From: a virus | Length of the DNA: 64,000 bases | IMG/VR virus record: IMGVR_UViG_3300046808_001241 | Span: 153,183 to 217,182 of that record | Strand: one strand, 5' to 3' | Shown here: positions 1-64,000 of the stretch, in pieces | How the letters are laid out: the number at the start of each line of letters is the position of its first letter | Position numbering within the stretch: position 1 is the first letter of the stretch | Translations under genes and position numbers: made by a program | Notes under the pieces: generated by a model | The model's database searches: none | What the model saw: the letters and a program-made list of their open reading frames with translations, nothing else | What the model was told of the DNA's origin: nothing

Positions 1-3000
1 GATTTAGTTAAGCTTTTTTTAACTGCTCCAGCTAGTTGGCCAGCAACAGGAGGCTCCTTTAACCATTGGTTTTTTTCTTGCCAGTCATAAAGAGAATCTT
101 GATCCTGTTTTGATAATCCTCTTCCTCCGATATGTACTTTTTCGTTTTCTGTTAAAAACTCCCCAGATAAATTCAAAGTCTTAAGAGATGTAGTAAATTC
201 TTTGTTGATGAATTGAGAAGCTCCAAGATTTTGTGGCAAGAAGTATCCGCCTACATCATCCCTTGTATAGATGTCTTCTAAAACAGGAACCGTTGCAACA
301 GTGGGATAAAATCTATTAGGTAAATTTGCCCAAGGCTTTGGAGAACTAAAAAATAATTCAGGAGTAGGAGTTTCAAGATCTTGAGTAACATCTGTAGATA
401 CAGTCCAAACGAAGCTGCTCAAAGCATAATATAAAATTTCTACAGGCAATCCGTTTTTAGTATTTGTTAGAGTAATCGGAGTAGCAGAGGTATTATAATA
501 TACCGACAAGTCTTCCTGACGTTTAGATCTAAAGATTGAAGAAAGATTTGAAAATTGTGAAGTAGTTGCGGACAGATAACACCATTGTGTATCATCAACG
601 AACGTTTTATAGTTAATTGGCTGTTTCCACTCTAGAGTATAACTTTTTCTATTATAGTCTATAACGCTTCCATAAGATATTTCGAATGGAGAAATTATTG
701 GACTGTGGTTGGGCAAATAGCTATCAATGTAGTTATTTGGATATCCCCAAGAATAAATTCCCTTGAATCTTGTTGATGAAGATTTGTCTAAATAAAGCTC
801 AGCCCAGTATGGTCTTGCTCCTGGAGCATTTTGTTGAGCTTTGTTTGTGTTATAGTTCCAACCAAATAAATCATGTTCGATTAAGAAACCGTTCGTAGAT
901 GTTGTAAAATCCAATAAAACTTCTTCATCAGAAAATTCAGGAACAACTGATATTAAAGGAATATTTGTCGACTCAAAAACTCTTGCTCCTCCAACTTTTG
1001 TTGCAGTGACAGCAATTGAATACGTTCCAGTAATAGGAGGAGTAAATGTTGGGGCGAAGGTGTTTAAAATCCATTGTTGCTCGCCGTCTTCTAATCTTTC
1101 GATTCTCCACGCATTAATTGCAGTAATTTCAGTAAATTGAGTAGAAGGATATTGAGGATCTGTAGATCCAAAAGGCTTTTGTTGGAATGGCCAATTAATT
1201 GCTGTGTAGTTAACATCCGAATTTATTGCAATCTTGTCAAAAGATGACCAAACCGTATTAATGTTTTCTGAAGTATTTTCGACCTCGACAGTTGAAAGCA
1301 AGTACGAAGTTGTAGTAGGCCGTCTTTCATATCTAATAAAGTCTCCGGCATTTAGCTTCATCTGAGAAGACTTTTCAGTAGGAGCCCATGTTCCGTCTGC
1401 TTGCAATTTAGCTTCAGCCCAAACTGTTGCAGGAGTTAAAAATTTATAATTTACGGAATATGGAGGAAATTGTTCTTCTTGGGTTTTTGATGTAGCTCTG
1501 TAATAAAAATATACTTTTCCTGGTTTAAGAGTAAGAGGAGTAGTTGAAAGTAGGTTATTCGAAGTCCAAGCTCCATCACCCCAACTGTGTTTTGTTTTAG
1601 TTTTATACCAAGCAATTTCAGTAGAAGATTCAAACGTACCGCTTAAAGAATCCCTCCATGAACCAAAATCAAATTCATCTAGTTTGTTTGTTGTGTCTTC
1701 GATAACACAATCAGCAAACATATTATTGTCTTGCAATTGTCTTCCGGTATGTCCAAAAGGACTATAATAGACTTGTTTGCAAGTGCACTTTTGCCATTCA
1801 AAGCTAGAGACAGAAGGAGTGTTTGTAGTAAAAGGACAATCAGCACTATGTGGAATAGTAGCAAAAACGTCATTTACACTTGTTTCGGGGCCCTGCCATA
1901 AAAATCTTGTAAAAACTCCAGGAGCAAATAAAGCACTGAATCCGTCTTGTTTGTGAGTTTTATAACCACTTAACTGAACCATTGCTGCAGAAAGCCAAGC
2001 ACATTCAAGAGCGGCATCTGACTCATCTTTATAGTTATTAACTTTGTAAATTTTGTCTGCTAGCTCAAAAGAAGAAGCAGCAATAGATAAAGATGTTGAT
2101 ATGTCTTGAATAGAAACAGCATTGCAAGCTCCTGCAAATGAAATCTTTTCTAAATACGAATTGAATTCAGATTCCTCATTTACCGTTCCATATGGCCACA
2201 AAAGAACGTTTGTGGAGTTAGGAGAAACAGGCAATGAAGTTCTTTCAAAGCGATATAACCAAGCTCCACTTAATTCCCCGTAAGGGATTGTTGTGTCTTC
2301 GGTACGATCTGTTCTAATATAGACTTGATCAGCAAAATTTGGGTTTTTATTAGGAATTGCACCAGAGCTAATCAAAGTTGTGTTATTCAGTAATATAACA
2401 TCATGAGTGTCAGCTGGTAAGGTTTGAGACCAATAAGCTTGATTAACTTGAGCTTTTAAATCTTTTGATAGAAAATCAAACCCTTGTGTAAATTCTAAGC
2501 TCGAACCAGTCCATGGAATATTGATTCCAGATAAACCATATCCCGGAAACGGAAATATAAAAGATGTGGTGGAATTTTGCTTGAGAGAAGACTTAACTGT
2601 TTTCGGTTCTTGTTCAAAGTCTTTATAATAAAGCCAAGCACTTTCAACTCGTTCTCCATTTTTGACAAAGACGACATCTGAATCTTCAATTGTTGCTCCA
2701 GCAGTAGCTCCTTCAATTTTTAGTGAACTCAGAGCTACGGGAGTCAGCTTTCCTTTTATAGCTACACTGTTGTCCAGAGTGCCATACGGATAATAAAAAT
2801 AATTGTTTCCTGCTTGAAGAGGAACGTCTGTTGTTTCTGTTACCGAAGAAGCAGCAGTAAATGTTACTGTATACTTGTCTTCTGAAAGATAATTTTGTAA
2901 AAAACTTCCGTATAAGTCTGCATCAGATGTTTCAAGAATATTAGAAGTAAGTTCAGAAACAAATGATTCAACATCCGAACTTAATGGAAGACTCAATGAA

Positions 3001-3698
3001 CTAAACAACCATTCAGAAGAGGAAAGCACGATTCCTTTTGTGAGGAAGAATTGTTCTGTTGCATCATGAAACAAATTATAGTATCCTGATACAGGAAGGC
3101 TGGTAGATTGATCAAAATAAACGTGATCATCATAAACTTCTTCTACTTGAATTACTAACGAATCTTGAAGAGCAGAAAATTGAGGAACGACAGTTTGTAA
3201 GGATGGGTCTAGTTCGTTGTTTAATGAAGAAAAAGTTTCGAACAAATAGCGGTAAATTTCTTGCTCGATTGATGTAGGAGTTCCAACTGTATTATACTTT
3301 ACTTTGGTGTTTTTAAGTTTATTGCGAAGCTTTAGATAATACAGAGAAATATCTTTAAGCTTTTTAGCAAAGTAAGGAATAGCTAAAAGAAGTTCTTTTT
3401 CGTCAGCTAAATTTACCTTGTTGTACCAAAGGTTTTTTTCTTCTTCAGAAAAGAACAATTGGAGTTGGTCTAGAAGATAAAGATACTTTTGCCTTAAAAC
3501 AAATTTTTGAGAAAGCTGCTTTTCTTTATTGTTAGCAAACCACTCTAAAACATATCTTTGATAGTGGTACGGAGCATCCTTTTCAGCAAGACTAGGTCTG
3601 CGCTGCTTCCATTCAAGATACGAGAACGGAGCATTTAAGTCAGTCTTTGTACCCTGGGGCTCGTTACTAACAATCTGTTTAAGATATTTCGGTTCCAC
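1..3698 (-). CDS. Very large virion structural protein, C-terminus beyond the left edge
   Basis: An uninterrupted minus-strand reading frame runs from a GTG at 3698 to the left edge, more than 1230 codons with no stop. GTG is chosen because an in-frame TAA lies 12 nt upstream and no ATG or TTG comes between. The N-terminus (EPKYLKQIVSNEPQG) leads into a charged helical region rich in Lys, Leu and Tyr over about 180 residues, then a long Thr/Ser/Asn/Tyr-rich part typical of beta-rich phage structural proteins. It is the last visible gene of the baseplate operon (gp25-like, gp6-like, PKD/propeller protein, tryptophan-repeat protein), so a baseplate wedge or fibre-network role is inferred. Position and size would suit a gp7- or gp10-like role, but I see no motif proving it. 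Confidence 0.75.
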   Translation of the reverse strand, partial: MEPKYLKQIVSNEPQGTKTDLNAPFSYLEWKQRRPSLAEKDAPYHYQRYVLEWFANNKEKQLSQKFVLRQKYLYLLDQLQLFFSEEEKNLWYNKVNLADEKELLLAIPYFAKKLKDISLYYLKLRNKLKNTKVKYNTVGTPTSIEQEIYRYLFETFSSLNNELDPSLQTVVPQFSALQDSLVIQVEEVYDDHVYFDQSTSLPVSGYYNLFHDATEQFFLTKGIVLSSSEWLFSSLSLPLSSDVESFVSELTSNILETSDADLYGSFLQNYLSEDKYTVTFTAASSVTETTDVPLQAGNNYFYYPYGTLDNSVAIKGKLTPVALSSLKIEGATAGATIEDSDVVFVKNGERVESAWLYYKDFEQEPKTVKSSLKQNSTTSFIFPFPGYGLSGINIPWTGSSLEFTQGFDFLSKDLKAQVNQAYWSQTLPADTHDVILLNNTTLISSGAIPNKNPNFADQVYIRTDRTEDTTIPYGELSGAWLYRFERTSLPVSPNSTNVLLWPYGTVNEESEFNSYLEKISFAGACNAVSIQDISTSLSIAASSFELADKIYKVNNYKDESDAALECAWLSAAMVQLSGYKTHKQDGFSALFAPGVFTRFLWQGPETSVNDVFATIPHSADCPFTTNTPSVSSFEWQKCTCKQVYYSPFGHTGRQLQDNNMFADCVIEDTTNKLDEFDFGSWRDSLSGTFESSTEIAWYKTKTKHSWGDGAWTSNNLLSTTPLTLKPGKVYFYYRATSKTQEEQFPPYSVNYKFLTPATVWAEAKLQADGTWAPTEKSSQMKLNAGDFIRYERRPTTTSYLLSTVEVENTSENINTVWSSFDKIAINSDVNYTAINWPFQQKPFGSTDPQYPSTQFTEITAINAWRIERLEDGEQQWILNTFAPTFTPPITGTYSIAVTATKVGGARVFESTNIPLISVVPEFSDEEVLLDFTTSTNGFLIEHDLFGWNYNTNKAQQNAPGARPYWAELYLDKSSSTRFKGIYSWGYPNNYIDSYLPNHSPIISPFEISYGSVIDYNRKSYTLEWKQPINYKTFVDDTQWCYLSATTSQFSNLSSIFRSKRQEDLSVYYNTSATPITLTNTKNGLPVEILYYALSSFVWTVSTDVTQDLETPTPELFFSSPKPWANLPNRFYPTVATVPVLEDIYTRDDVGGYFLPQNLGASQFINKEFTTSLKTLNLSGEFLTENEKVHIGGRGLSKQDQDSLYDWQEKNQWLKEPPVAGQLAGAVKKSLTK

Positions 3699-3714
3699 TA
3701 ATAGTAATTATTCG

Positions 3715-4533
3715 TCAAATTGCTAAAAGAGGCACCTTAAATTGCTGTCCGTTAATAGTAATAACCAAGCTAGAAATACATTCTGTAATTGTTTGGCCGG
3801 GTTCTATAGAAACATTGCTCAAAGAGACCGCACCCGTCAAATCCCCTCCGGAAAGAGGCAAAAAGTTTGAGTGAGAATATTGTAAAGAAATTGAGTTGTC
3901 CCAATTTGTTGCAGAATTTGTTTGAACTGTTGAGAATGCGCTATCCCAATTTGCAGAGAGATCCCTTAATTCTGCATCAAATGTATTGTCAATTTCCCAT
4001 GTTGCGGAATTGGTTTGGACGACGGTATAAACCTCATTCCAAGCTCCTGAATTTGACTCTACGAGGGTATATGCAGTTTGCCAGTTTGCTGACAAATCCC
4101 GTAATTCCGTATCAATGGAGTTGTCAGTTTCCCAAGTAGCAGAATTAGCTTGAATCAGAGTATAGCTTTCAATCCACGATGCAGAATTTGATTCAACCGT
4201 TGAAAACGTACTATCCCAATTTGCAGACAAATCCCTTAATTCCGTATCAATGGAGTTGTTAGTTTCCCAAGTAGCAGAATTTGTTTGAATTAACGTATAA
4301 GCTTCTTCCCAAAATGCAGAGTTTGAACTAACAAGAGTATAAACAGATTCCCAATTGCCTGACAAATCTTTTAAATCAGTTCCTTGATATTTAAACAAAT
4401 CAGGAAGACTATCTTGAACTGTTTGAAAAGTTGTTCTTAGTTCCCCTGTAGCACTTGCTTTATATCCTACAAGATAATCCCCACTTTCGAGTGATGTAGA
4501 AAGATCAAAATCTGTTAGCTTCTTGTTTGCCAT
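3715..4533 (-). CDS. Tryptophan-repeat tail fibre-like protein
   Basis: This 272-residue protein contains three full copies and one partial copy of a 45-residue repeat (about residues 54-215). Each repeat has the pattern DLSxNWxSxxxxVxSNSAxW, then YTLIQxNSATWE, then DTELR. Within a repeat, Trp residues recur about every 14-16 positions, which suggests a regular rod or trimeric fibre. After the repeats comes LPLSGGDLTGAVSL, a signature seen near the distal parts of many phage tail fibres, then a compact C-terminal domain. It sits 4 nt after the PKD/propeller gene and is followed by the giant gene running off the left edge. A short fibre or baseplate-attached spike is inferred. The repeats are also near-identical in DNA, so copy number could vary by recombination. 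Confidence 0.7.
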   Translation of the reverse strand: MANKKLTDFDLSTSLESGDYLVGYKASATGELRTTFQTVQDSLPDLFKYQGTDLKDLSGNWESVYTLVSSNSAFWEEAYTLIQTNSATWETNNSIDTELRDLSANWDSTFSTVESNSASWIESYTLIQANSATWETDNSIDTELRDLSANWQTAYTLVESNSGAWNEVYTVVQTNSATWEIDNTFDAELRDLSANWDSAFSTVQTNSATNWDNSISLQYSHSNFLPLSGGDLTGAVSLSNVSIEPGQTITECISSLVITINGQQFKVPLLAI

Positions 4534-10971: not shown

Positions 10972-11960
10972 AAACACAAAACAGACCTAAAATATTTGAA
11001 GAACAGATAGCAAGAAAGCCAAATCATTTTTCTTGGACGGACTCGTTCGTCGAGAGTATTCAAAACGGATTTTGGACGCATCGGGAATTTAACTTCAAAT
11101 CAGACATTCAGCAATTTAAAGTTAATTTGACCGATCAAGAAAGAGATATTATTATCCGCACGCTTTCTGCTATTGGACAAATTGAAATTGCTGTAAAAAC
11201 ATTCTGGGGAAAGCTCGGAGAGAATTTGAGATTTCCAAATTTTTCTGACCTAGGTTATACTATGGCCCACACAGAAGTCATTCACAATAATGCTTATGAG
11301 CGTCTTATTGACGTATTAGGCTTAAGTGAAGTGTTTGAAGAAAACTTAAAACTTGATTGGATTCAAGGACGGGTTAACTATCTTCGTAAATACACTCACA
11401 AGTTTTATAAAGATTCAAAGAAACAATATCTTTATGCTATTATCTTGTTCACGTTGTTTGTTGAGAACGTTTCGTTGTTTAGTCAGTTCTATATCATTAA
11501 CTGGTTTGCAAGGTTCAAAAACGTTCTTAAAGATACAGACCAACAAGTCAAATACACACGCAATGAAGAAAACCTCCATGCTTTGATTGGCATTAAAATT
11601 ATCAACACTATTAGAGAAGATTATCCAGAAATGTTCGATGAAGAGCTGGAACAAAAGATTCTTCACGAGGCAGAAGAGGCTTATAAGTCAGAAGCAAAGA
11701 TTGTGGATTGGATGATTAACGGCATTCAAGAAGAAGGATTGACTGCTCCAATCCTCAAAGAATTCATTAAGAACAGAATTAATGAATCGTTAACTCAAAT
11801 TGGTTTTAAAACAGCATTTGAAGTTGATAAAGATCTTTTAAAGACTACAATGTGGTTTAATGAAGAATTGCTTGGAGAGAACGCGACAGATTTTTTTCAT
11901 AGTCGGCCCACTTCATATGCAAAGAACAATCAATCATTTTCTGAAGATGACTTGTTTTAA
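10968..11960 (+). CDS. nrdB: Class I ribonucleotide reductase, small (radical-bearing) subunit
   Basis: The 330-residue protein is the beta subunit that makes the tyrosyl radical used by NrdA to reduce ribonucleotides. Expected di-iron ligands are visible: Glu73, Glu103 and His106 (in HTEVIHNNAY), Glu166 (LFVENVSLF) and Glu201/His204 (NEENLHA). Tyr110 is at the radical position. The C-terminal tail, NNQSFSEDDLF, is the flexible peptide that docks on NrdA. It is preceded by a coupled small gene and followed by a homing endonuclease gene whose own last 11 codons repeat this exact tail. nrdA lies about 2.8 kb downstream, so the pair is split by inserted genes. Confidence 0.95.
   Translation: MKTQNRPKIFEEQIARKPNHFSWTDSFVESIQNGFWTHREFNFKSDIQQFKVNLTDQERDIIIRTLSAIGQIEIAVKTFWGKLGENLRFPNFSDLGYTMAHTEVIHNNAYERLIDVLGLSEVFEENLKLDWIQGRVNYLRKYTHKFYKDSKKQYLYAIILFTLFVENVSLFSQFYIINWFARFKNVLKDTDQQVKYTRNEENLHALIGIKIINTIREDYPEMFDEELEQKILHEAEEAYKSEAKIVDWMINGIQEEGLTAPILKEFIKNRINESLTQIGFKTAFEVDKDLLKTTMWFNEELLGENATDFFHSRPTSYAKNNQSFSEDDLF
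11925..11960 (+). repeat. Direct repeat copy 1: nrdB 3' end
   Basis: These 36 nt, ending in the nrdB stop codon, match 13683-13718 at 34 of 36 positions. Both encode NNQSFSEDDLF and the stop. Confidence 0.95.
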
Positions 11961-12014: not shown

Positions 12015-13718
12015 ATGTTTACACGCGTATTTGATACAAAGTCTTTTATCGATAAATCCAAACAGAAATTTAGTTCCAAATTTAGTTACGAGGATACGGT
12101 ATATACAAAATCAACAAATAGACTTAACGTAATTTGCAGCATTCACGGCAAAGTCGAAATTCTTCCAGGAGTGCACTTGTCTGGAGCGGGATGCCCGAGC
12201 TGTTCGAGGGCGTTAAATGGCTTGAGTCATAGAATGGACACTGAAACGTTTATTAAAAGAGCTCAAGCTAAACATAATAATTTTTACAATTACGACAAAG
12301 CAACATTTCAAGGTAGTTTAAAAAACCTAATAGTCACTTGTCCTGTGCACGGAGATTTCGCAATTCAAGCAAGTCGACATATAAATAACGGAGCTGGTTG
12401 CTCAAAGTGTGGTTTTATTCGTCGTGTAAAAAAATGCACTACCCCACTCGATGTGTTTTTAGAAAAGACATCCAAAAAACCAAATTTCGAAAATTATGAT
12501 TTCAGTTTAGTTAACTTTAAAAATAAAAAAGAATGGGTTACCGTTATTTGTAAAAAGCACGGAGAGTATAAAACTAAACCTAGATATATTGATAATAGTG
12601 CGTTTTTCGGTTGTAGTCAGTGCAAATGCGAAAGCAGAACTTTCACTACTGATACTTTTATCGAAAAAGCTAAACAAATACATGCCGAAAGATATCTTTA
12701 TGATAGAGTCGAATATAAAGATTCACACACAGAGGTGACACTAATCTGTAAAACTCACGGAGATTATATTTGCAAACCTTATGTACACTTGGCGGGAGGA
12801 GGCTTTTGTCCAAGCTGCACTAACAATGGTGTAAGTTCTTATGAGAGAGAAATAAAATTATTTTTGCAACAAAACGGCATCAGCATAGAATCTTCTTTTA
12901 GAGGATTTGACGGATTGAAGGAAATAGATTTAATTTGTCACAACAAAAAAATAGGAATTGAAGTTAATGGGTTATATTGGCACTGTGACTTATACAAAGA
13001 AAAAAACTTTCATAAACACAAAACGGAAACTTTGTTAAAGCAGGGATATCGACTAATTCATATATTTGAAGACAGCTGGCTTCTCAAAAAAGACGTTTGT
13101 TTGTCAATTTTATTGAATGCGTTTAATAAAACTCCCAATAAAATTTACGCAAGAAAGTGTGAACTAAAACTAATTTCAGATAAAGAGTCAAAACATTTTT
13201 TAAATGCAAACCACGTACAAGGTTCTTGCGTTTCTAAAATAAGATATGGTTTATTCTATAATAACGAGCTTGTATCGGTTATGACCTTCGGCTCTAACAG
13301 AAAAAATTTGGGCAATAAATCAAAACCAAATGAATACGAACTACTAAGGTTTTGTAACAAAACCTACACCAATGTCGTTGGAGGAGCTTCTAAACTGTTT
13401 GCTTCTTTCATCAAACAACACAACCCTCGGAAAATAACAAGCTATTGCAATAGAAGTATCGGAACGGGAAATCTATACAAGCAGCTTGGATTTCAGTTTT
13501 TATACAATACGCCTCCAAACTATTTTTATGTCAGAGGAAGTACAAGATTGCCGAGATTTAAATTTCGAAAAGATGTGTTAATTAAACAAGGACATGATAA
13601 AAACAAAACAGAAGCTTGCATTATGAAGGAATTAGGGTATAATAGAATTTATGACTGTGGAAGCATGAAATTTGAATGGACAAATAATCAATCATTTTCC
13701 GAAGATGACTTGTTTTAA
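12015..13718 (+). CDS. Homing endonuclease, zinc-ribbon repeats plus EDxHD/Vsr-like nuclease, with nrdB-tail C-terminus
   Basis: The protein is 567 residues long. The first 270 residues hold four repeats of the type Y..........V.CxxHG.......H......GCxxC, each with paired cysteines and a HG motif, typical of DNA-binding modules in phage endonucleases. Next is a Vsr/EDxHD-like nuclease core: EIDLICHNKKIGIEVNGLYW, then HKHKTETLLKQGYRLIHIFE and DSW. The remaining 200 residues are the domain commonly joined to this nuclease (ELLRFCNKTYTNVVGGASKL). The last 11 residues, NNQSFSEDDLF, are identical to the end of NrdB. It lies between nrdB and nrdA as a free-standing mobile gene. I see no intron core, so this looks like an intronless insertion that duplicated the nrdB end. 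Confidence 0.85.
   Translation: MFTRVFDTKSFIDKSKQKFSSKFSYEDTVYTKSTNRLNVICSIHGKVEILPGVHLSGAGCPSCSRALNGLSHRMDTETFIKRAQAKHNNFYNYDKATFQGSLKNLIVTCPVHGDFAIQASRHINNGAGCSKCGFIRRVKKCTTPLDVFLEKTSKKPNFENYDFSLVNFKNKKEWVTVICKKHGEYKTKPRYIDNSAFFGCSQCKCESRTFTTDTFIEKAKQIHAERYLYDRVEYKDSHTEVTLICKTHGDYICKPYVHLAGGGFCPSCTNNGVSSYEREIKLFLQQNGISIESSFRGFDGLKEIDLICHNKKIGIEVNGLYWHCDLYKEKNFHKHKTETLLKQGYRLIHIFEDSWLLKKDVCLSILLNAFNKTPNKIYARKCELKLISDKESKHFLNANHVQGSCVSKIRYGLFYNNELVSVMTFGSNRKNLGNKSKPNEYELLRFCNKTYTNVVGGASKLFASFIKQHNPRKITSYCNRSIGTGNLYKQLGFQFLYNTPPNYFYVRGSTRLPRFKFRKDVLIKQGHDKNKTEACIMKELGYNRIYDCGSMKFEWTNNQSFSEDDLF
13683..13718 (+). repeat. Direct repeat copy 2: nrdB 3' end fused to the endonuclease gene
   Basis: This is the second copy of the nrdB 3' end, in frame with the endonuclease. 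The two differences from copy 1 are both synonymous, which suggests the peptide is under selection or the duplication is not very old. Confidence 0.95.
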
Positions 13719-29676: not shown

Positions 29677-30771
29677 TTAATAAAGCCGTTCGCATTGCTT
29701 TAAATGACTAGGCTTTCGTCTACCTCCAAAACACCATGCTAAGTCTAAATCTTTTTCTGCATAAGACCAAAGATACCCATGAGCTGATCTTGTTCCATTG
29801 CTTTTTCTGCAGCACTCTATAATCGCAGACGTATGGTTCTTGCCAACTGCCTTGGCTGCGTCAAGAAAACTACGAAACGTTTGTATGTATTCCCCTGAAA
29901 AGTTATATTGAGTTACCGCTCTAACTGCTCTTCCTGTACTCTTTTTCATTTTGGGTCGAGGGTCAATGGGTAGGCCACATTTAAAGGCTGCGACCCTTTG
30001 AGAGCGATTAGTTGGTATATATGGTCCTGGGGACTTGAAAGTAAATGTCCATCTAAATCCCAAAGATATAGAACCTATTCTAGCGCTTTTGTATATATTT
30101 CCTGAACCTTCTTGTCTATAACCTAGTATGCAATCCTTTGCAGTTTGGGCATTGGGATATCGGTTTATGTAGTTCCCGTGCAAATCCCATTGATATACAG
30201 GTCTTTTCTTCTCAAAACACCACTCCAAATCAAGCTGCTCGTTTTCATAAGACCAAAAATATCCTCCGGTAGATTTTTGACCGTCGCTTCTCATGCAACA
30301 CGCACTTACTGCAGAAGAAGTGTTTTGTCCGCAATGTTGCGCAGCAGCCAAACAACTGGGAAACGAGCGAATATATTCTCCGAACAAGTTATATTGCTTG
30401 ACTGGGGAACATAATTTATGACTCGGTTCTTCTCCCAGCTTTATGTTGGTAAGAATACCGCCCTCATCGAGATTGGATCGTCCCCATTTTTGTATCAATC
30501 TTTTTTCTTCATCTAATGCAGTTTGCTCGTCAAAACTTTCAAATACTATTTCATATTTTGGTCCATAACCTAACTTTTTTAATTTTTCTATTTTATTAAA
30601 TTTGTATGGATTGCTCATTTTATCAGAAGACCAGTTGTGATAATGCGCTTCGACTCGCTTTCCTTTTCCCTTTCCAACATAAAAAGGTTGATCATTTCTT
30701 GGGTCTATGAGAACATAGACGTAGTACATAGAATCTGCAGGTAGTTTTTGATTTTCGTTTGTCATAAGCAT
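29677..30771 (-). CDS. GIY-YIG homing endonuclease with NUMOD-type DNA-binding repeats
   Basis: A 364-residue protein. Residues 15-110 form a GIY-YIG-like nuclease domain (YYVYVLIDPRNDQPFYVGKG, KGKRVEAHYHNW, then ALDEEKRLIQKWGR). It is followed by three repeats of about 55 residues beginning VKQYNLFGEYIRSFPS, VYQWDLHGNYINRYPN and VTQYNFSGEYIQTFRS. These are NUMOD1-like modules, and the first and last end in SxGYxWSY. It is a free-standing mobile gene placed antisense between dUTPase and the next plus-strand gene. ATG at 30771 or 30765 could serve as start. A hairpin covers the first ATG, and a second copy of the start region lies about 40 nt upstream. Confidence 0.88.
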   Translation of the reverse strand: MLMTNENQKLPADSMYYVYVLIDPRNDQPFYVGKGKGKRVEAHYHNWSSDKMSNPYKFNKIEKLKKLGYGPKYEIVFESFDEQTALDEEKRLIQKWGRSNLDEGGILTNIKLGEEPSHKLCSPVKQYNLFGEYIRSFPSCLAAAQHCGQNTSSAVSACCMRSDGQKSTGGYFWSYENEQLDLEWCFEKKRPVYQWDLHGNYINRYPNAQTAKDCILGYRQEGSGNIYKSARIGSISLGFRWTFTFKSPGPYIPTNRSQRVAAFKCGLPIDPRPKMKKSTGRAVRAVTQYNFSGEYIQTFRSFLDAAKAVGKNHTSAIIECCRKSNGTRSAHGYLWSYAEKDLDLAWCFGGRRKPSHLKQCERLY

Positions 30772-30784
30772 AATTACTTATGCT
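30767..30784 (-). promoter_or_regulatory. Hairpin over the endonuclease start codon
   Basis: AGCATAA (minus strand) pairs with TTATGCT around a 4-nt loop. The first ATG of the GIY-YIG gene lies inside the stem, so translation would be masked in transcripts that include the upstream arm. Confidence 0.45.
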
Positions 30785-30853
30785 CAAGCGCTTTATTTTT
30801 TGGTTCGTTTGACATAAGCACTCTTCCTACCATTAAAGCGCTTGAGCTTTTTT
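30782..30853 (+). ncRNA. Candidate 72-nt stem-loop RNA / terminator, element 1
   Basis: A perfect 14-bp stem (30782-30795 with 30834-30847) encloses a 38-nt loop and is followed by TTTTTT. CATAATTA at 30769-30776 lies 5 nt before the first stem base, the spacing of late promoters here. Its architecture and length match 63240-63311. At the least it is a plus-strand terminator; the unusually large loop and the promoter-like octamer suggest a discrete RNA. Confidence 0.5.
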
Positions 30854-42475: not shown

Positions 42476-44965
42476 TTATTTAATGGTTTTGGACGAATTT
42501 TTGACAGAAGAAAATGATATTGCATCATTCTTGATAGTCACTTTAATCTTCGAGCCGTTTGTGAACTTGCCTTCCAACAAGCAGTCAGCTAGAGGATCTT
42601 CAATATATTTTTCAATTGACCTACGAAGCTGTCTTGCTCCGTACTTTGAACTGTAACCTTTTTCGAAAAGAAAGTCATAAACCTTAGTATCAAAGACCAA
42701 TTCCATATTCTTTTCCTTTAGACGATCTGATACTTTGTCGACTTCAAGCTTTACAATCTTGGAAATATCTTCCTTTGTTAAAGAGCGGAAGACAATAATA
42801 CTACTCAAACGATTTATAAACTCTGGTTTAAAGTGCCTCTTTGCTTCTTCTGACATCTTCTGAGCTGTGTCTTCGTGAGTATCATTTTCTGCAACTGGAG
42901 CTCCGAATCCAAGAGTAGTTTGTTTTTTAATCAACTCTGCTCCAAGGTTGGAGGTCATAATGATAATAGTATTTCGGAAATCAATCTTCCGTCCAAGCGA
43001 ATCCGTAACATTACCTTGCTCCAGAATTTGAAGAAGAATATTCACAACGTCCGGATGAGCCTTTTCAATTTCATCAAAGAGTACTACCGAATACGGACGG
43101 CGTCTTACTTGTTCAGTTAGTTGTCCTCCTTCTTCATAACCAATATAGCCTGGAGCTGCTCCAATAAGTCTGGTCAAAGAAATCTTGTCCATGTATTCAG
43201 ACATATCGAATTGGATCAAGCAGTCTTTAGATCCAAACATATATTCAGCAATCGTGCGAGTAAGAAATGTCTTTCCAACGCCTGTCGGACCCAGAAACAA
43301 AAACGAACCGATTGGTCGATTTGGATCTTTCAAATTGACTCTTGCTCGTTTGATTGCCTTCACTACAGCATCCACAGCTTCGTCTTGACCAATCACATGC
43401 TTCTGCAAAGTCTTGTGCATGTCGATCAGTTTTGCAGATTCTTTCTGATCAATCTTTGTTACAGGAATGCCAGTCCACTTAGACAAGACGTGCGCAATGT
43501 CTTCCCGTGTTACATCTACAACAATTTCGTGTTGGTTCTTTTTCCATTGATCAATCGTTTCTGTTAGTTTTGATTTGAGTTTGTTTTCTTCATCCCTCAG
43601 CAAAGCAGCTTTTTCAAACTCTTGATTTTTAATTGCTTGCTGCTTTTCTTCATCAATCCGTTTGACAGACTCTTCGAGTTCTTTAGTAATTGGTTGCTTA
43701 ACCGTAGCTGCAATTCTAGCCTTTGCTCCAGCTTCATCCATCAGGTCAATTGCCTTGTCAGGAAGAAAGCGATTTGTAATGTACCTGTCGGATAGAATGG
43801 CGGATTCTTCCAAAGCTTCGTCAGAAAACTTAGCTTTATGATGCTCTTCGTACTTTGGTCTAATTCCCTTCAAGATTTGAATAGTGTCTTTTACAGAAGG
43901 AGGTTCGACAGAAACTTGCTGGAACCTTCTTTCCAGAGCACTATCCTTTTCAATATACTTCCTGTACTCAGTTACTGTAGTTGCTCCAATACATTGCAAC
44001 AACCCCCTACTCAATGCAGGCTTGATCATATTAGAAGCATCCATCGTTCCTTCTGCAGAACCAGCTCCAACAATTGTATGCAGCTCGTCAATGAATAGAA
44101 TTATGTTCTTATCCTCTTCAATTTCTTTCATGACACCTTTGAGACGCTCTTCAAACTGTCCTCTGTACTTTGTCCCAGCAACCATCAAAGCCATGTCGAG
44201 AGCAATGATCTTTTTGTTTTTGAGAATTTCAGGAACCCTTTCTTCTGCAATTTCGATAGCAAGACCTTCTGCAATTGCTGTTTTACCCACTCCCGCTTCC
44301 CCAACGAGGACAGGATTGTTCTTGGACCTCCTGCAAAGGATTTGAATGACCCGCTCGATTTCATCTGCTCGACCGACTACTGGATCAAGCTTGTGTTCTT
44401 TTGCTTCGTCTGTTAGATTCCTTCCGTATGCTTTAAGGTTTGGAGTCTTCTTATTTGACTTCTTGGTTGTGTTTTGTTTTGGAGGACCGGCAGCCACTGG
44501 TTCTTTTTTGTTATAGTTAGGATCCAACTCAGCAAGAATTTCCTCGCGAGCTAGTTCCAAATCAATATCAAGCTGGTTTAGAACATATACAGCAAGACCA
44601 TCGCCTTCTGCAAGAAGTCCCAACAACAAGTGTTCCGTGCCAATATAAGAATGGCCCATGTCCTTTGCTTCTTTTTCCGCAAGACGGAACACTCTTTCTA
44701 GTCGAGGAGTAGCAGTCGGTATTTCGTTTTTTGGAGACGTTTGAGTATCTGCATCCTCAAGTTCTTTATGAATAGCTTTCTTAATATCTTCAAAGCTTGC
44801 TCCCATCTTCTGCAATACACTTACAGCAATTCCTTGGTTTAATTTAAGTAGTCCAAGGAGCAAATGTTCCGTGCCCACATAATCGTGGTTCATTTGCCTT
44901 GCTTCTTTTTGAGATTGGTTGATTGCTTCAACGGCTCTTGGCGTAAAATTATTAGGAAAATCCAT
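42476..44965 (-). CDS. clpC: ClpC-type AAA+ unfoldase
   Basis: At 829 residues it is a complete ClpC. It has two N-terminal Clp_N repeats (RAVEAINQSQKEARQMNHDY near 10-30 and RVFRLAEKEAKDMGHSYIGT near 91-110), D1 Walker A GEAGVGKT (222-229), a UVR-like helix (IKNQEFEKAALLRDEENKLK), and D2 Walker A GPTGVGKT with Walker B VVLFDEIEKAH. The D2 loop contains KKQTTLGFGAP; the Leu-Gly-Phe tripeptide is the ClpP-docking motif in bacterial ClpA/C/X. It could therefore feed host ClpP, since no clpP is visible here. It heads the tail operon and is divergent from the next gene, with overlapping start codons. Confidence 0.95.
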   Translation of the reverse strand: MDFPNNFTPRAVEAINQSQKEARQMNHDYVGTEHLLLGLLKLNQGIAVSVLQKMGASFEDIKKAIHKELEDADTQTSPKNEIPTATPRLERVFRLAEKEAKDMGHSYIGTEHLLLGLLAEGDGLAVYVLNQLDIDLELAREEILAELDPNYNKKEPVAAGPPKQNTTKKSNKKTPNLKAYGRNLTDEAKEHKLDPVVGRADEIERVIQILCRRSKNNPVLVGEAGVGKTAIAEGLAIEIAEERVPEILKNKKIIALDMALMVAGTKYRGQFEERLKGVMKEIEEDKNIILFIDELHTIVGAGSAEGTMDASNMIKPALSRGLLQCIGATTVTEYRKYIEKDSALERRFQQVSVEPPSVKDTIQILKGIRPKYEEHHKAKFSDEALEESAILSDRYITNRFLPDKAIDLMDEAGAKARIAATVKQPITKELEESVKRIDEEKQQAIKNQEFEKAALLRDEENKLKSKLTETIDQWKKNQHEIVVDVTREDIAHVLSKWTGIPVTKIDQKESAKLIDMHKTLQKHVIGQDEAVDAVVKAIKRARVNLKDPNRPIGSFLFLGPTGVGKTFLTRTIAEYMFGSKDCLIQFDMSEYMDKISLTRLIGAAPGYIGYEEGGQLTEQVRRRPYSVVLFDEIEKAHPDVVNILLQILEQGNVTDSLGRKIDFRNTIIIMTSNLGAELIKKQTTLGFGAPVAENDTHEDTAQKMSEEAKRHFKPEFINRLSSIIVFRSLTKEDISKIVKLEVDKVSDRLKEKNMELVFDTKVYDFLFEKGYSSKYGARQLRRSIEKYIEDPLADCLLEGKFTNGSKIKVTIKNDAISFSSVKNSSKTIK

Positions 44966-62336: not shown

Positions 62337-62410
62337 GCAGTATTAGTTTAATGGTAGAACGGAGCTCTTCCAAAGCCCAGACGAGAGTTCGATTCTCTCA
62401 TGCTGCACCA
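62337..62410 (+). tRNA. tRNA-Gly (anticodon TCC)
   Basis: A 74-nt cloverleaf including an encoded CCA. The acceptor stem is GCAGTAT/ATGCTGC (one G-U pair), the anticodon loop is CTTCCAA, and the T arm is GAGAG-TTCGATT-CTCTC. One A-C mismatch lies in the anticodon stem. It reads GGA codons, which are common in this AT-rich phage's Gly-rich structural genes. Confidence 0.88.
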
Positions 62411-63180
62411 TTCTCTACCAGAACATTTTCTCTCCCTTCTCTCTACACTCTTCTCTCCCGAAGGACAGATCAACAGTTTACACAGCTCTTGATTCTCAAT
62501 ACTTTACATCAGTTCTAACAAAAAGAACAACAACAAGTTACAAACTGTCCCAATTCTTATAAAGCTTTTCAAATCAACAAGTAACGTAAACCCTTTAAAG
62601 CCAACGAGCTACACAAGATAAAATCTATATACCCCTGAGTAACAAACCTTGAAAGAGATTGATCTCTCGTTAGCCCTGTCCTTGTTTTTGGTCATCCGAG
62701 GCTCGCTGACCTTTTCCGAATATGATTCTATCTTCAGAGCTTTGGTTGGACAAGTCACCAAGAATTTTGGGGCCTTTAAGTCTCACTCAATGACTTTTTC
62801 GGTTAGGTGGCGCTGTGGACATAATCCCCCCGTGGACCCTTTTGAAAGGGTTGGGAGGATTATTTGACACTTCAATACTTTTCGTATGAGTCTGTATGCC
62901 GCGTAAGGTCTTTCGACCGTAGTTCTTCAGATTACTTCTAATCAACGACTCTGGTTCCTATATCATCGATTCGAACTACTCCCCACATTCGGAACGGGTT
63001 TTCATTCATTCAGATTTGGTTAGCTAGCAGTCCACTCCTACACTCCAGACAAGAGCTTATAGTGGATGTTGTTTAACGAGTGACGTTCTCATTGAGTCCT
63101 TTGACTCGAACCAAACTATTCGTTGATGGTCGTCCTAACTCGCTTCAACCATTACAGTTAAAGCTTTATGTTCATATTTT
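62411..63180 (+). ncRNA. Candidate large structured noncoding RNA beside tRNA-Gly
   Basis: About 770 bases without a credible gene but with GC-richer islands and many local stems: AGAGA/TCTCT (62654-62667), GGTCA/TGACC (62690-62711), GGTC/GACC around 62907-62918, and GAGTC-CTTT-GACTC near 63094-63107. The longest is a rod, ATAATCC-CCC with GGG-A-GGATTAT, capped by ACCCTT-TTGA-AAGGGT (62821-62863). A 72-codon plus-strand frame at 62649 looks accidental. Its size and its position next to a tRNA in a phage recall GOLLD- or ROOL-type RNAs, but I cannot align it to either. Exact ends are unknown. Confidence 0.5.
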
Positions 63181-63225
63181 ATTTATCTATTTCCTTGAAA
63201 TTTTTTTGAATTATTGTATGTTTTG

Positions 63226-63233
63226 TATAAATA
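63226..63233 (+). promoter_or_regulatory. Perfect late promoter octamer TATAAATA
   Basis: T4 geometry places transcription start at 63239/63240, the first base of a perfect 14-bp stem. Confidence 0.65.
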
Positions 63234-63239
63234 ATTTTT

Positions 63240-63311
63240 GCTCCAGTACAGAGATTATTCTTTAAACTCGCTTTAAGGCTTTATGTTCACCCTCTGTACT
63301 GGAGCTTTTTT
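63240..63311 (+). ncRNA. Candidate 72-nt stem-loop RNA, element 2, upstream of bS21
   Basis: GCTCCAGTACAGAG (63240-63253) pairs perfectly with CTCTGTACTGGAGC (63292-63305) and is followed by TTTTTT. The 38-nt loop contains a second hairpin, CTTTAAA-CTCGC-TTTAAGG. It has the same stem and loop lengths as 30782-30853. It is either a free late RNA or a terminator/attenuator in the bS21 leader, since the bS21 ATG comes 17 nt later. Confidence 0.6.
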
Positions 63312-63327
63312 AATAATTAAATTTCCA

Positions 63328-63531
63328 ATGAATTACAATTTTGAAGTCAAAATAAGAAACAACGAGCCGATCGACAGAGCACTGAAAGTATTAAAAGGCA
63401 AGCTTGAATCAGATGGCCTCTTTGATGTAGTCCGTTCGAAGAGATCGTTTGAGACTCCGACCCAAAAGAAGAAGAGGAAACTCAAAGCTGCCCACAAGAA
63501 GGCCAAGCAGGCCAGATCTCGCAGAGACTAG
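63328..63531 (+). CDS. rpsU: Ribosomal protein bS21-like
   Basis: 67 residues from the ATG at 63328; a longer frame from 63283 begins inside the stem-loop and is not used. VKIRNNEPIDRALKVLKGKL and the basic tail QKKKRKLKAAHKKAKQARSR match bS21 (compare the bacterial 'V..nEp.d.ALrrFKr'). bS21 sits near the anti-Shine-Dalgarno end of 16S rRNA in initiation. Phage-encoded bS21 is known in marine phages and probably replaces the host copy to favour phage messages. No AGGAG-like site precedes it. Confidence 0.88.
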   Translation: MNYNFEVKIRNNEPIDRALKVLKGKLESDGLFDVVRSKRSFETPTQKKKRKLKAAHKKAKQARSRRD

Positions 63532-63683: not shown

Positions 63684-63890
63684 ATGAATACAAAATTGTC
63701 AGATGCACAAAAGCAACTAATCGACGACCTGATTGCAAATACTATCCTTCCTGCTTTGCAAGAAGACGTTTGCATTCCAAATATGGATGACATGGATGAA
63801 GGACATCCAGCACACGATCTAGTCTATGAAGATCGTGTAGATGTGCTTTATGGTGAAGCACTTAACTATCTCAAGAACAACCTCCTCTAA
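63684..63890 (+). CDS. Small acidic hypothetical protein
   Basis: 68 residues from the ATG at 63684; a longer frame starts at 63642. MNTKLSDAQKQLIDDLIANT, NMDDMDEGHPAHDLVYEDRV. Helical and acidic. Function unknown. Confidence 0.55.
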   Translation: MNTKLSDAQKQLIDDLIANTILPALQEDVCIPNMDDMDEGHPAHDLVYEDRVDVLYGEALNYLKNNLL

Positions 63891-63905
63891 TAGAAAGAAT
63901 TGTAT

Positions 63906-64000
63906 ATGAAAGTAAATAGCCTAATCCTCCTAGCACTAATGCTTCCACTCGTTGGCTGTTCGACTGTTGATCAAGCCAAGAAGGATTTCAAGAACTTTAA
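63906..64000 (+). CDS. Predicted small lipoprotein, cut by the right edge
   Basis: Only 31 codons are visible. MKVNSLILLALMLPLVGCST is a lipoprotein signal with the lipobox LVGC (Cys18), then VDQAKKDFKNF. It would be lipid-anchored to a host membrane. An outer-membrane spanin (lysis) is one possibility; the partner and full length lie outside the window. Confidence 0.65.
   Translation, partial: MKVNSLILLALMLPLVGCSTVDQAKKDFKNF

Follow-up and report, generated by a model that had tools for sequence, protein, structure and literature searches.

A stem-loop before a phage bS21 gene and its counterparts beside homing endonuclease genes: candidate antisense RNAs resembling RNA-OUT

RNA-OUT of IS10/Tn10 is a stem-loop of about 70 nt, made from its own promoter, whose loop can pair with the transposase mRNA at its 5' end and start region; it is transcribed opposite RNA-IN and overlaps it, which makes the complementarity automatic. 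For the homing endonucleases of T4, reviews list cis hairpins, autorepression and promoter choice as means of control (PMC2988022), and the RBS-sequestering hairpins of I-TevI, Aeh1 mobE and segB are located in cis on the endonuclease mRNA (PMC2988022, PMC3014915). In cyanophage S-PM2, an antisense RNA of ~225 nt, CfrI, overlaps psbA and an endonuclease gene, its function being unknown (PMC2984593). No small trans-acting RNA from T4 has been functionally characterised (PMC3014915).

Here we describe a stem-loop located directly before the bS21 gene in a 64,000-nt stretch of viral DNA (hereafter the window; IMG/VR record IMGVR_UViG_3300046808_001241, positions 153,183 to 217,182), together with four others that are built alike. 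Judged from its sequence, the stem-loop probably represents a small antisense RNA in its own right, with little connection to bS21, and we consider it fairly likely that elements of this build give rise to late antisense RNAs of ~72 nt which, like RNA-OUT, would mask the 5' end and start codon of an mRNA. The likeness to IS10 RNA-OUT extends to the size of the stem-loop, the possession of its own promoter and in four of the five elements, a loop complementary to the mRNA start of a mobile-element enzyme. In contrast to RNA-OUT, the predicted RNA is encoded at a separate, divergent site, as a perfect stem of its own that encloses a diverged version of the beginning of the mRNA. The enzyme differs as well, being a homing endonuclease, as do the promoters, which are of the T4 late type. 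The small-RNA gene does not overlap its target gene, as a cis-antisense RNA in the strict sense would. CfrI, too, is an antisense RNA of a T4-like phage that is tied to a homing endonuclease gene, but the present elements are predicted stem-loops of ~72 nt situated outside the endonuclease gene. The cis hairpins of the T4 family are likewise RNA hairpins by an endonuclease start, accompanied by a late promoter and thought to restrain translation, whereas the hairpins reported here would belong to a separate transcript on the opposite strand, upstream of the predicted +1 of the mRNA. Since a divergent stem-loop antisense RNA of such build is not described in the literature we searched, we regard the elements as a putative new version of mobile-element antisense RNA.

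The element before bS21 spans positions 63240–63311 of the plus strand (72 nt). Its arms, 63240–63253 and 63292–63305, are complementary at 14 of 14 positions, enclose a loop of 38 nt and are followed by TTTTTT at 63306–63311, a putative intrinsic terminator; stem length, loop length and T run agree with a preliminary description of the locus. The late-promoter motif TATAAATA noted there is present at 63226–63233 on the same strand, although the spacer to the stem comprises six bases (ATTTTT) instead of five; the predicted +1 falls at 63239/63240. An additional CTCGC hairpin that had been proposed inside the loop turned out to be weak and unstable and is missing from the centroid fold. The folding energy of the RNA is −26.7 kcal/mol (z ~ −6, equalled by none of 200 shuffles). 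Perfect inverted repeats with arms of 14 bp or longer and a loop not exceeding 80 nt number two in the whole 64 kb, against ~0.1 in shuffled sequences. At the Rfam gathering score the element has no family, its sole match being an opposite-strand chance hit to mir-785 far below threshold, and an Rfam search of the surrounding region returned tRNA-Gly only.

Exact copies of TATAAATA are not enriched in the window (7 seen, 4.4 expected). The wider motif NATAA[A/T/G]TA, however, is strongly placed 12–22 nt before start codons in the phage's own genome. Sense sites of NATAAATA lie within 11–20 nt before start codons in 30 of 40 cases, antisense sites in none of eight, and for ORFs of at least 60 aa 52 of the 60 upstream cases of ATAAATA, ATAATTA and ATAAGTA are found 12–22 nt before ATG, as compared to 0/6 for ATAACTA; the background frequency of ATAANTA is 0.0004 per base. 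It is this placement which makes a T4-type late promoter in front of the 63240 stem credible. Under the T4 rule the late +1 lies six bases after the motif, and all +1 positions given here are predictions by analogy with T4. Compared with T4-type late promoters (TATAAATA; NATAAATA in S-PM2), motif and position relative to genes are the same, but the first position is mostly G or A, the sixth tolerates T or G, and mRNAs without a leader are predicted by the spacing that occurs most often. This spacing, in which NATAAATA starts exactly 13 nt before ATG, applies to 17 of 43 ATAAATA sites in the 217-kb record; leaderless late mRNAs are a suggestive prediction for a phage with its own bS21.

A hairpin scan of this record and of related phage records, which were located via a 604-aa virion protein, covered ~2.5 Mb with both strands read and yielded four more elements constructed in this way, one in the window and three in two related phages. 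The second element of the window occupies 30782–30853 (plus strand), with stem GCTCAAGCGCTTTA formed by the 14-bp arms 30782–30795 and 30834–30847, a 38-nt loop and the T6-containing sequence TTTTTTAAT; its late-promoter motif CATAATTA at 30769–30776 (plus strand) ends exactly 5 nt before the stem. One relative contributes two elements (L148 2839–2905 and L121 6296–6368), another relative the fifth (L146 4228–4162, minus strand). Common to all five are a perfect 14-bp stem, a loop of 38–45 nt, a run of T5–T7 and a loop core that recurs upstream. A late-promoter motif is found 5–10 nt before the stem in every element, and on the opposite strand a further late motif precedes the start of each pairing region at a distance of 5 nt. 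The suggestion that we are dealing with a discrete small RNA made from a late promoter is thereby supported at the sequence level, as each of the five stem-loops carries its own promoter motif and T run. As a separate observation, the two divergent late promoters overlap as a quasi-palindrome (e.g. CATAAATACTTATC) at 30769–30782, at L121 6280–6295 and in the L146 region, resembling a compact bidirectional late promoter.

The check for covariation in related phages gave a positive result: across the five elements all 70 of 70 stem pairs are Watson–Crick, even though the sequences differ and all 14 positions vary. The two orthologous elements beside GIY-type endonuclease genes differ by a single compensatory stem-pair change, T-A to A-T. 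The stems of the two HNH-type elements are almost wholly different, with 21 nt of loop spanning the antisense core being identical. It should be noted that only three phages underlie these numbers, that the independent cases are likewise three (GIY, HNH and 63240), and that the viral collection was searched via close protein and DNA patterns only. Searches of IMG/VR that started from the endonucleases led back to the same phages and to no other intact relatives, the HNH genes of T4-like cultured phages and the Rhizobium phage GIY gene that we checked are without the hairpin, and blastn in the phage collection found no further members; one match at E=1e-3 was discarded, as it lies in an AT-rich part of an endonuclease coding region. 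Double matches in a scan with the HNH loop core were confined to the two known HNH phages. A looser, wider hairpin scan recovered the same elements plus likely coding-region repeats, the latter at a rate similar to that in a reversed-sequence control. An 18-mer common to unrelated contigs was judged a search artefact.

In four of the five elements the divergent partner is a free-standing homing endonuclease gene. The second element of the window faces a GIY-YIG/NUMOD1 gene on the minus strand, extending from 29677 to about 30765–30771, whose late-promoter motif CATAAGTA at 30775–30782 (minus strand) places the predicted +1 at 30769; the predicted mRNA start, GCUU-AUG, pairs with the loop of the small RNA. 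The L148 gene likewise encodes a GIY-YIG enzyme with NUMOD1, and the L121 gene (PHROG 655, 'homing endonuclease', 1.8e-39) and its 63%-identical L146 homologue encode HNH enzymes. DNA homology between the GIY loci ends at window position 30852 and L148 2910, that between the HNH loci at L121 6378. In both families this end lies no more than about 3 nt from the end of the T run, and on the other side homology continues into the neighbouring gene. Because cassette homology stops there, the small RNA is the outermost conserved part on the T-run side, an indication that the endonuclease cassette includes it. Several observations stand apart from this comparison. The L148 cassette lies between a diverged N-terminal fragment (1725–1940) and a full copy (2934–3869) of a clamp-loader gene resembling gp44; the arrangement looks as though the target of the cassette had been partly duplicated upon insertion. 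Another HNH/homing endonuclease gene of the window (12015–13718, plus strand; phrog_559) showed no antisense stem-loop alongside in the scan. Elsewhere in the window, a ClpB-like ATP-dependent protease/AAA+ protein is encoded at 42476–44965 on the minus strand (phrog_4871, E 8e-263).

All five loops carry a near-copy, 16–18 nt in length, of upstream sequence on the same strand, so that the loop core is antisense to the divergent transcript over the first ~17 nt of the latter, beginning within a base of the predicted +1. This antisense relation does not figure in the preliminary description. In shuffled sequences a match as good as the observed one was never reached in 3000 trials for four elements and once in 3000 for the remaining one, and among other hairpins above the same score cut-off in the ~2.5 Mb (both strands) the best upstream match was 11 nt. 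For the four endonuclease-linked elements the 16–18 nt of complementarity reach from the predicted +1 through the start codon (GCUU-AUG and GACUAAAAU-AUG). Cognate loop–mRNA duplexes within the endonuclease families have calculated energies of −21 to −30 kcal/mol, compared to −4 to −14 kcal/mol between families. At the 63240 element, the antisense segment of the loop (TTAAGGCTTTATGTTCA, 63273–63289, plus strand) is identical to 63158–63174 at 16 of 17 positions (0/3000 shuffles) and the loop–target duplex reaches −32.3 kcal/mol. A divergent late promoter, GATAAATA, at 63180–63187 on the minus strand puts the predicted +1 at 63174. The predicted 5' end of the target RNA (63137–63174, minus strand) contains two blocks that pair with the loop, 63174–63158 and around 63148–63137, with the 13 nt between them bulged out.

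We propose a model in which RNA polymerase would start in both directions from intergenic T4-type promoters late in infection. The small RNA would end at its own stem and T run, and its long perfect stem would present the ~38-nt loop in single-stranded form, free to pair with the first ~17 nt (from +1) of the divergent, near-leaderless endonuclease mRNA. The duplex would hide the start codon and keep the 30S subunit from binding, and it might in addition be exposed to RNase III. The endonuclease level would then stay low while the number of templates rises, as RNA-OUT achieves for IS10, and the endonuclease cassette would carry its own restraint, as IS10 carries RNA-OUT. The 63240 element would be a member of the same anatomy whose divergent partner, from ~63174 leftwards, is without an intact gene.

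Several points speak against this model. The duplex of the window GIY pair contains a one-base difference between endonuclease start and loop with no sign of co-change, the T4-like endonuclease genes we checked in cultured phages are without the element, and at 63240 no gene can be recognised in the target, while 13 nt split the antisense copy. The elements could instead be ordinary intrinsic terminators that end leftover plus-strand transcription before the next gene (here bS21), with a non-regulatory loop. A strong stem with T6, plus-strand genes following in every case and the need of free-standing endonuclease insertions to fit the transcription of their neighbours (PMC2988022) are consistent with such a role, which we nevertheless consider unlikely: a loop of 38–45 nt is unusual for terminators, a promoter motif directly precedes the stem each time, and the loop is best conserved in the 16–18-nt segment which all five copy from the divergent 5' end, starting at about +1. 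A DNA-level operator, at which the endonuclease would bind the repeated core and repress both back-to-back promoters, has a precedent in I-TevI, which binds an operator overlapping its own late promoter (PMC2988022), and the cores do form direct repeats flanking the promoters. We hold this to be very improbable, since it gives no reason why a perfect stem that covaries, together with a T run, should surround one of the copies, and since the copy starts at the mRNA +1 and takes in the start codon without overlapping the promoter. Control of bS21 itself, by an attenuator, leader or binding site, is a further rival; an attenuator had been offered in the preliminary description as the alternative to a discrete small RNA, and of these two only the small RNA is supported. 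The bS21 gene (63328–63531, plus strand, 67 aa; PF01165, 59.9 bits) does begin shortly after the element, with 16 nt between T run and ATG. It is preceded, however, by its own late-promoter-like motif AATAATTA at 63312–63319 (plus strand), after the T run and 16 nt before the ATG, which is inside the range used by the phage's late genes and predicts a 3-nt leader. A leader or attenuator should lie within the bS21 transcript and accompany the gene in relatives; upstream of bS21 in three related phages (loci L117–L119) no hairpin was seen on inspection, and the other four elements adjoin homing endonuclease genes and are not near bS21. The association with bS21 thus looks accidental, bS21 being a neighbour and probably not the target, and its control by the element appears extremely improbable.

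With the antisense RNA retained as the preferred reading, the nature of the 63240 partner has to be considered. The divergent transcript may extend over 62411–63174 of the minus strand, where only short ORFs of chance length occur, no Pfam, PHROG or Rfam match was obtained, and Pfam, PHROGs and tblastx revealed no endonuclease remnants. These ~760 nt without convincing ORFs adjoin tRNA-Gly(tcc) at 62337–62410 and have, on the minus strand, a late promoter of canonical sequence. The simplest and most likely reading is an endonuclease locus that has decayed; the region would otherwise be an unrecognised RNA. As a sub-case of the antisense model, the 63240 element could regulate a functional minus-strand noncoding RNA instead of being the orphan of a lost endonuclease. 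The canonical GATAAATA promoter, the lack of an ORF of note, a GC content of 0.41 compared to 0.37 for the window and the fold of minus-strand positions 62620–63175, which is slightly more stable than expected by chance (556 nt; z −2.5, none of 100 shuffles as good), would fit such an RNA. We still regard it as unlikely, because z-values in sliding windows of this strand (−1.1 to −2.6) are only mildly under the control (mean −0.7, sd 1.3), no Rfam family applies, the homologue search found none and the corresponding region of the related phage is unlike. A structured plus-strand RNA in 62411–63239 was rejected (z −0.43). Short conserved blocks shared with L121 (62584–62619, 63171–63245 and 63563–63621 against 11318–11353, 11168–11244 and 11547–11605) surround bS21 in permuted order, and on the idea of a split RNA or split gene the coding and RNA readings disagree. 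A further 200-nt segment at 63725–63924 of the minus strand folds with z −4.55 and is antisense to a small ORF. Finally, the 63240 element might act as a free-standing anti-homing RNA, kept after loss of the endonuclease, that would pair in trans with the matching endonuclease mRNA starts of co-infecting phages and block homing, a role that we consider decidedly doubtful.

Homing endonucleases make up about 11% of the T4 genome (PMC2988022). As mobile genes they abound in T4-like phages, where cis hairpins and autorepression are known to hold them in check. An antisense RNA that recurs as part of the cassette and is copied from the 5' end of the mRNA would constitute a new self-limiting route for endonuclease genes, and the elements described herein provide a candidate sRNA–target pair that is open to direct test. 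It would also suggest a route by which antisense regulators are born, namely the duplication of a target's start into a hairpin.
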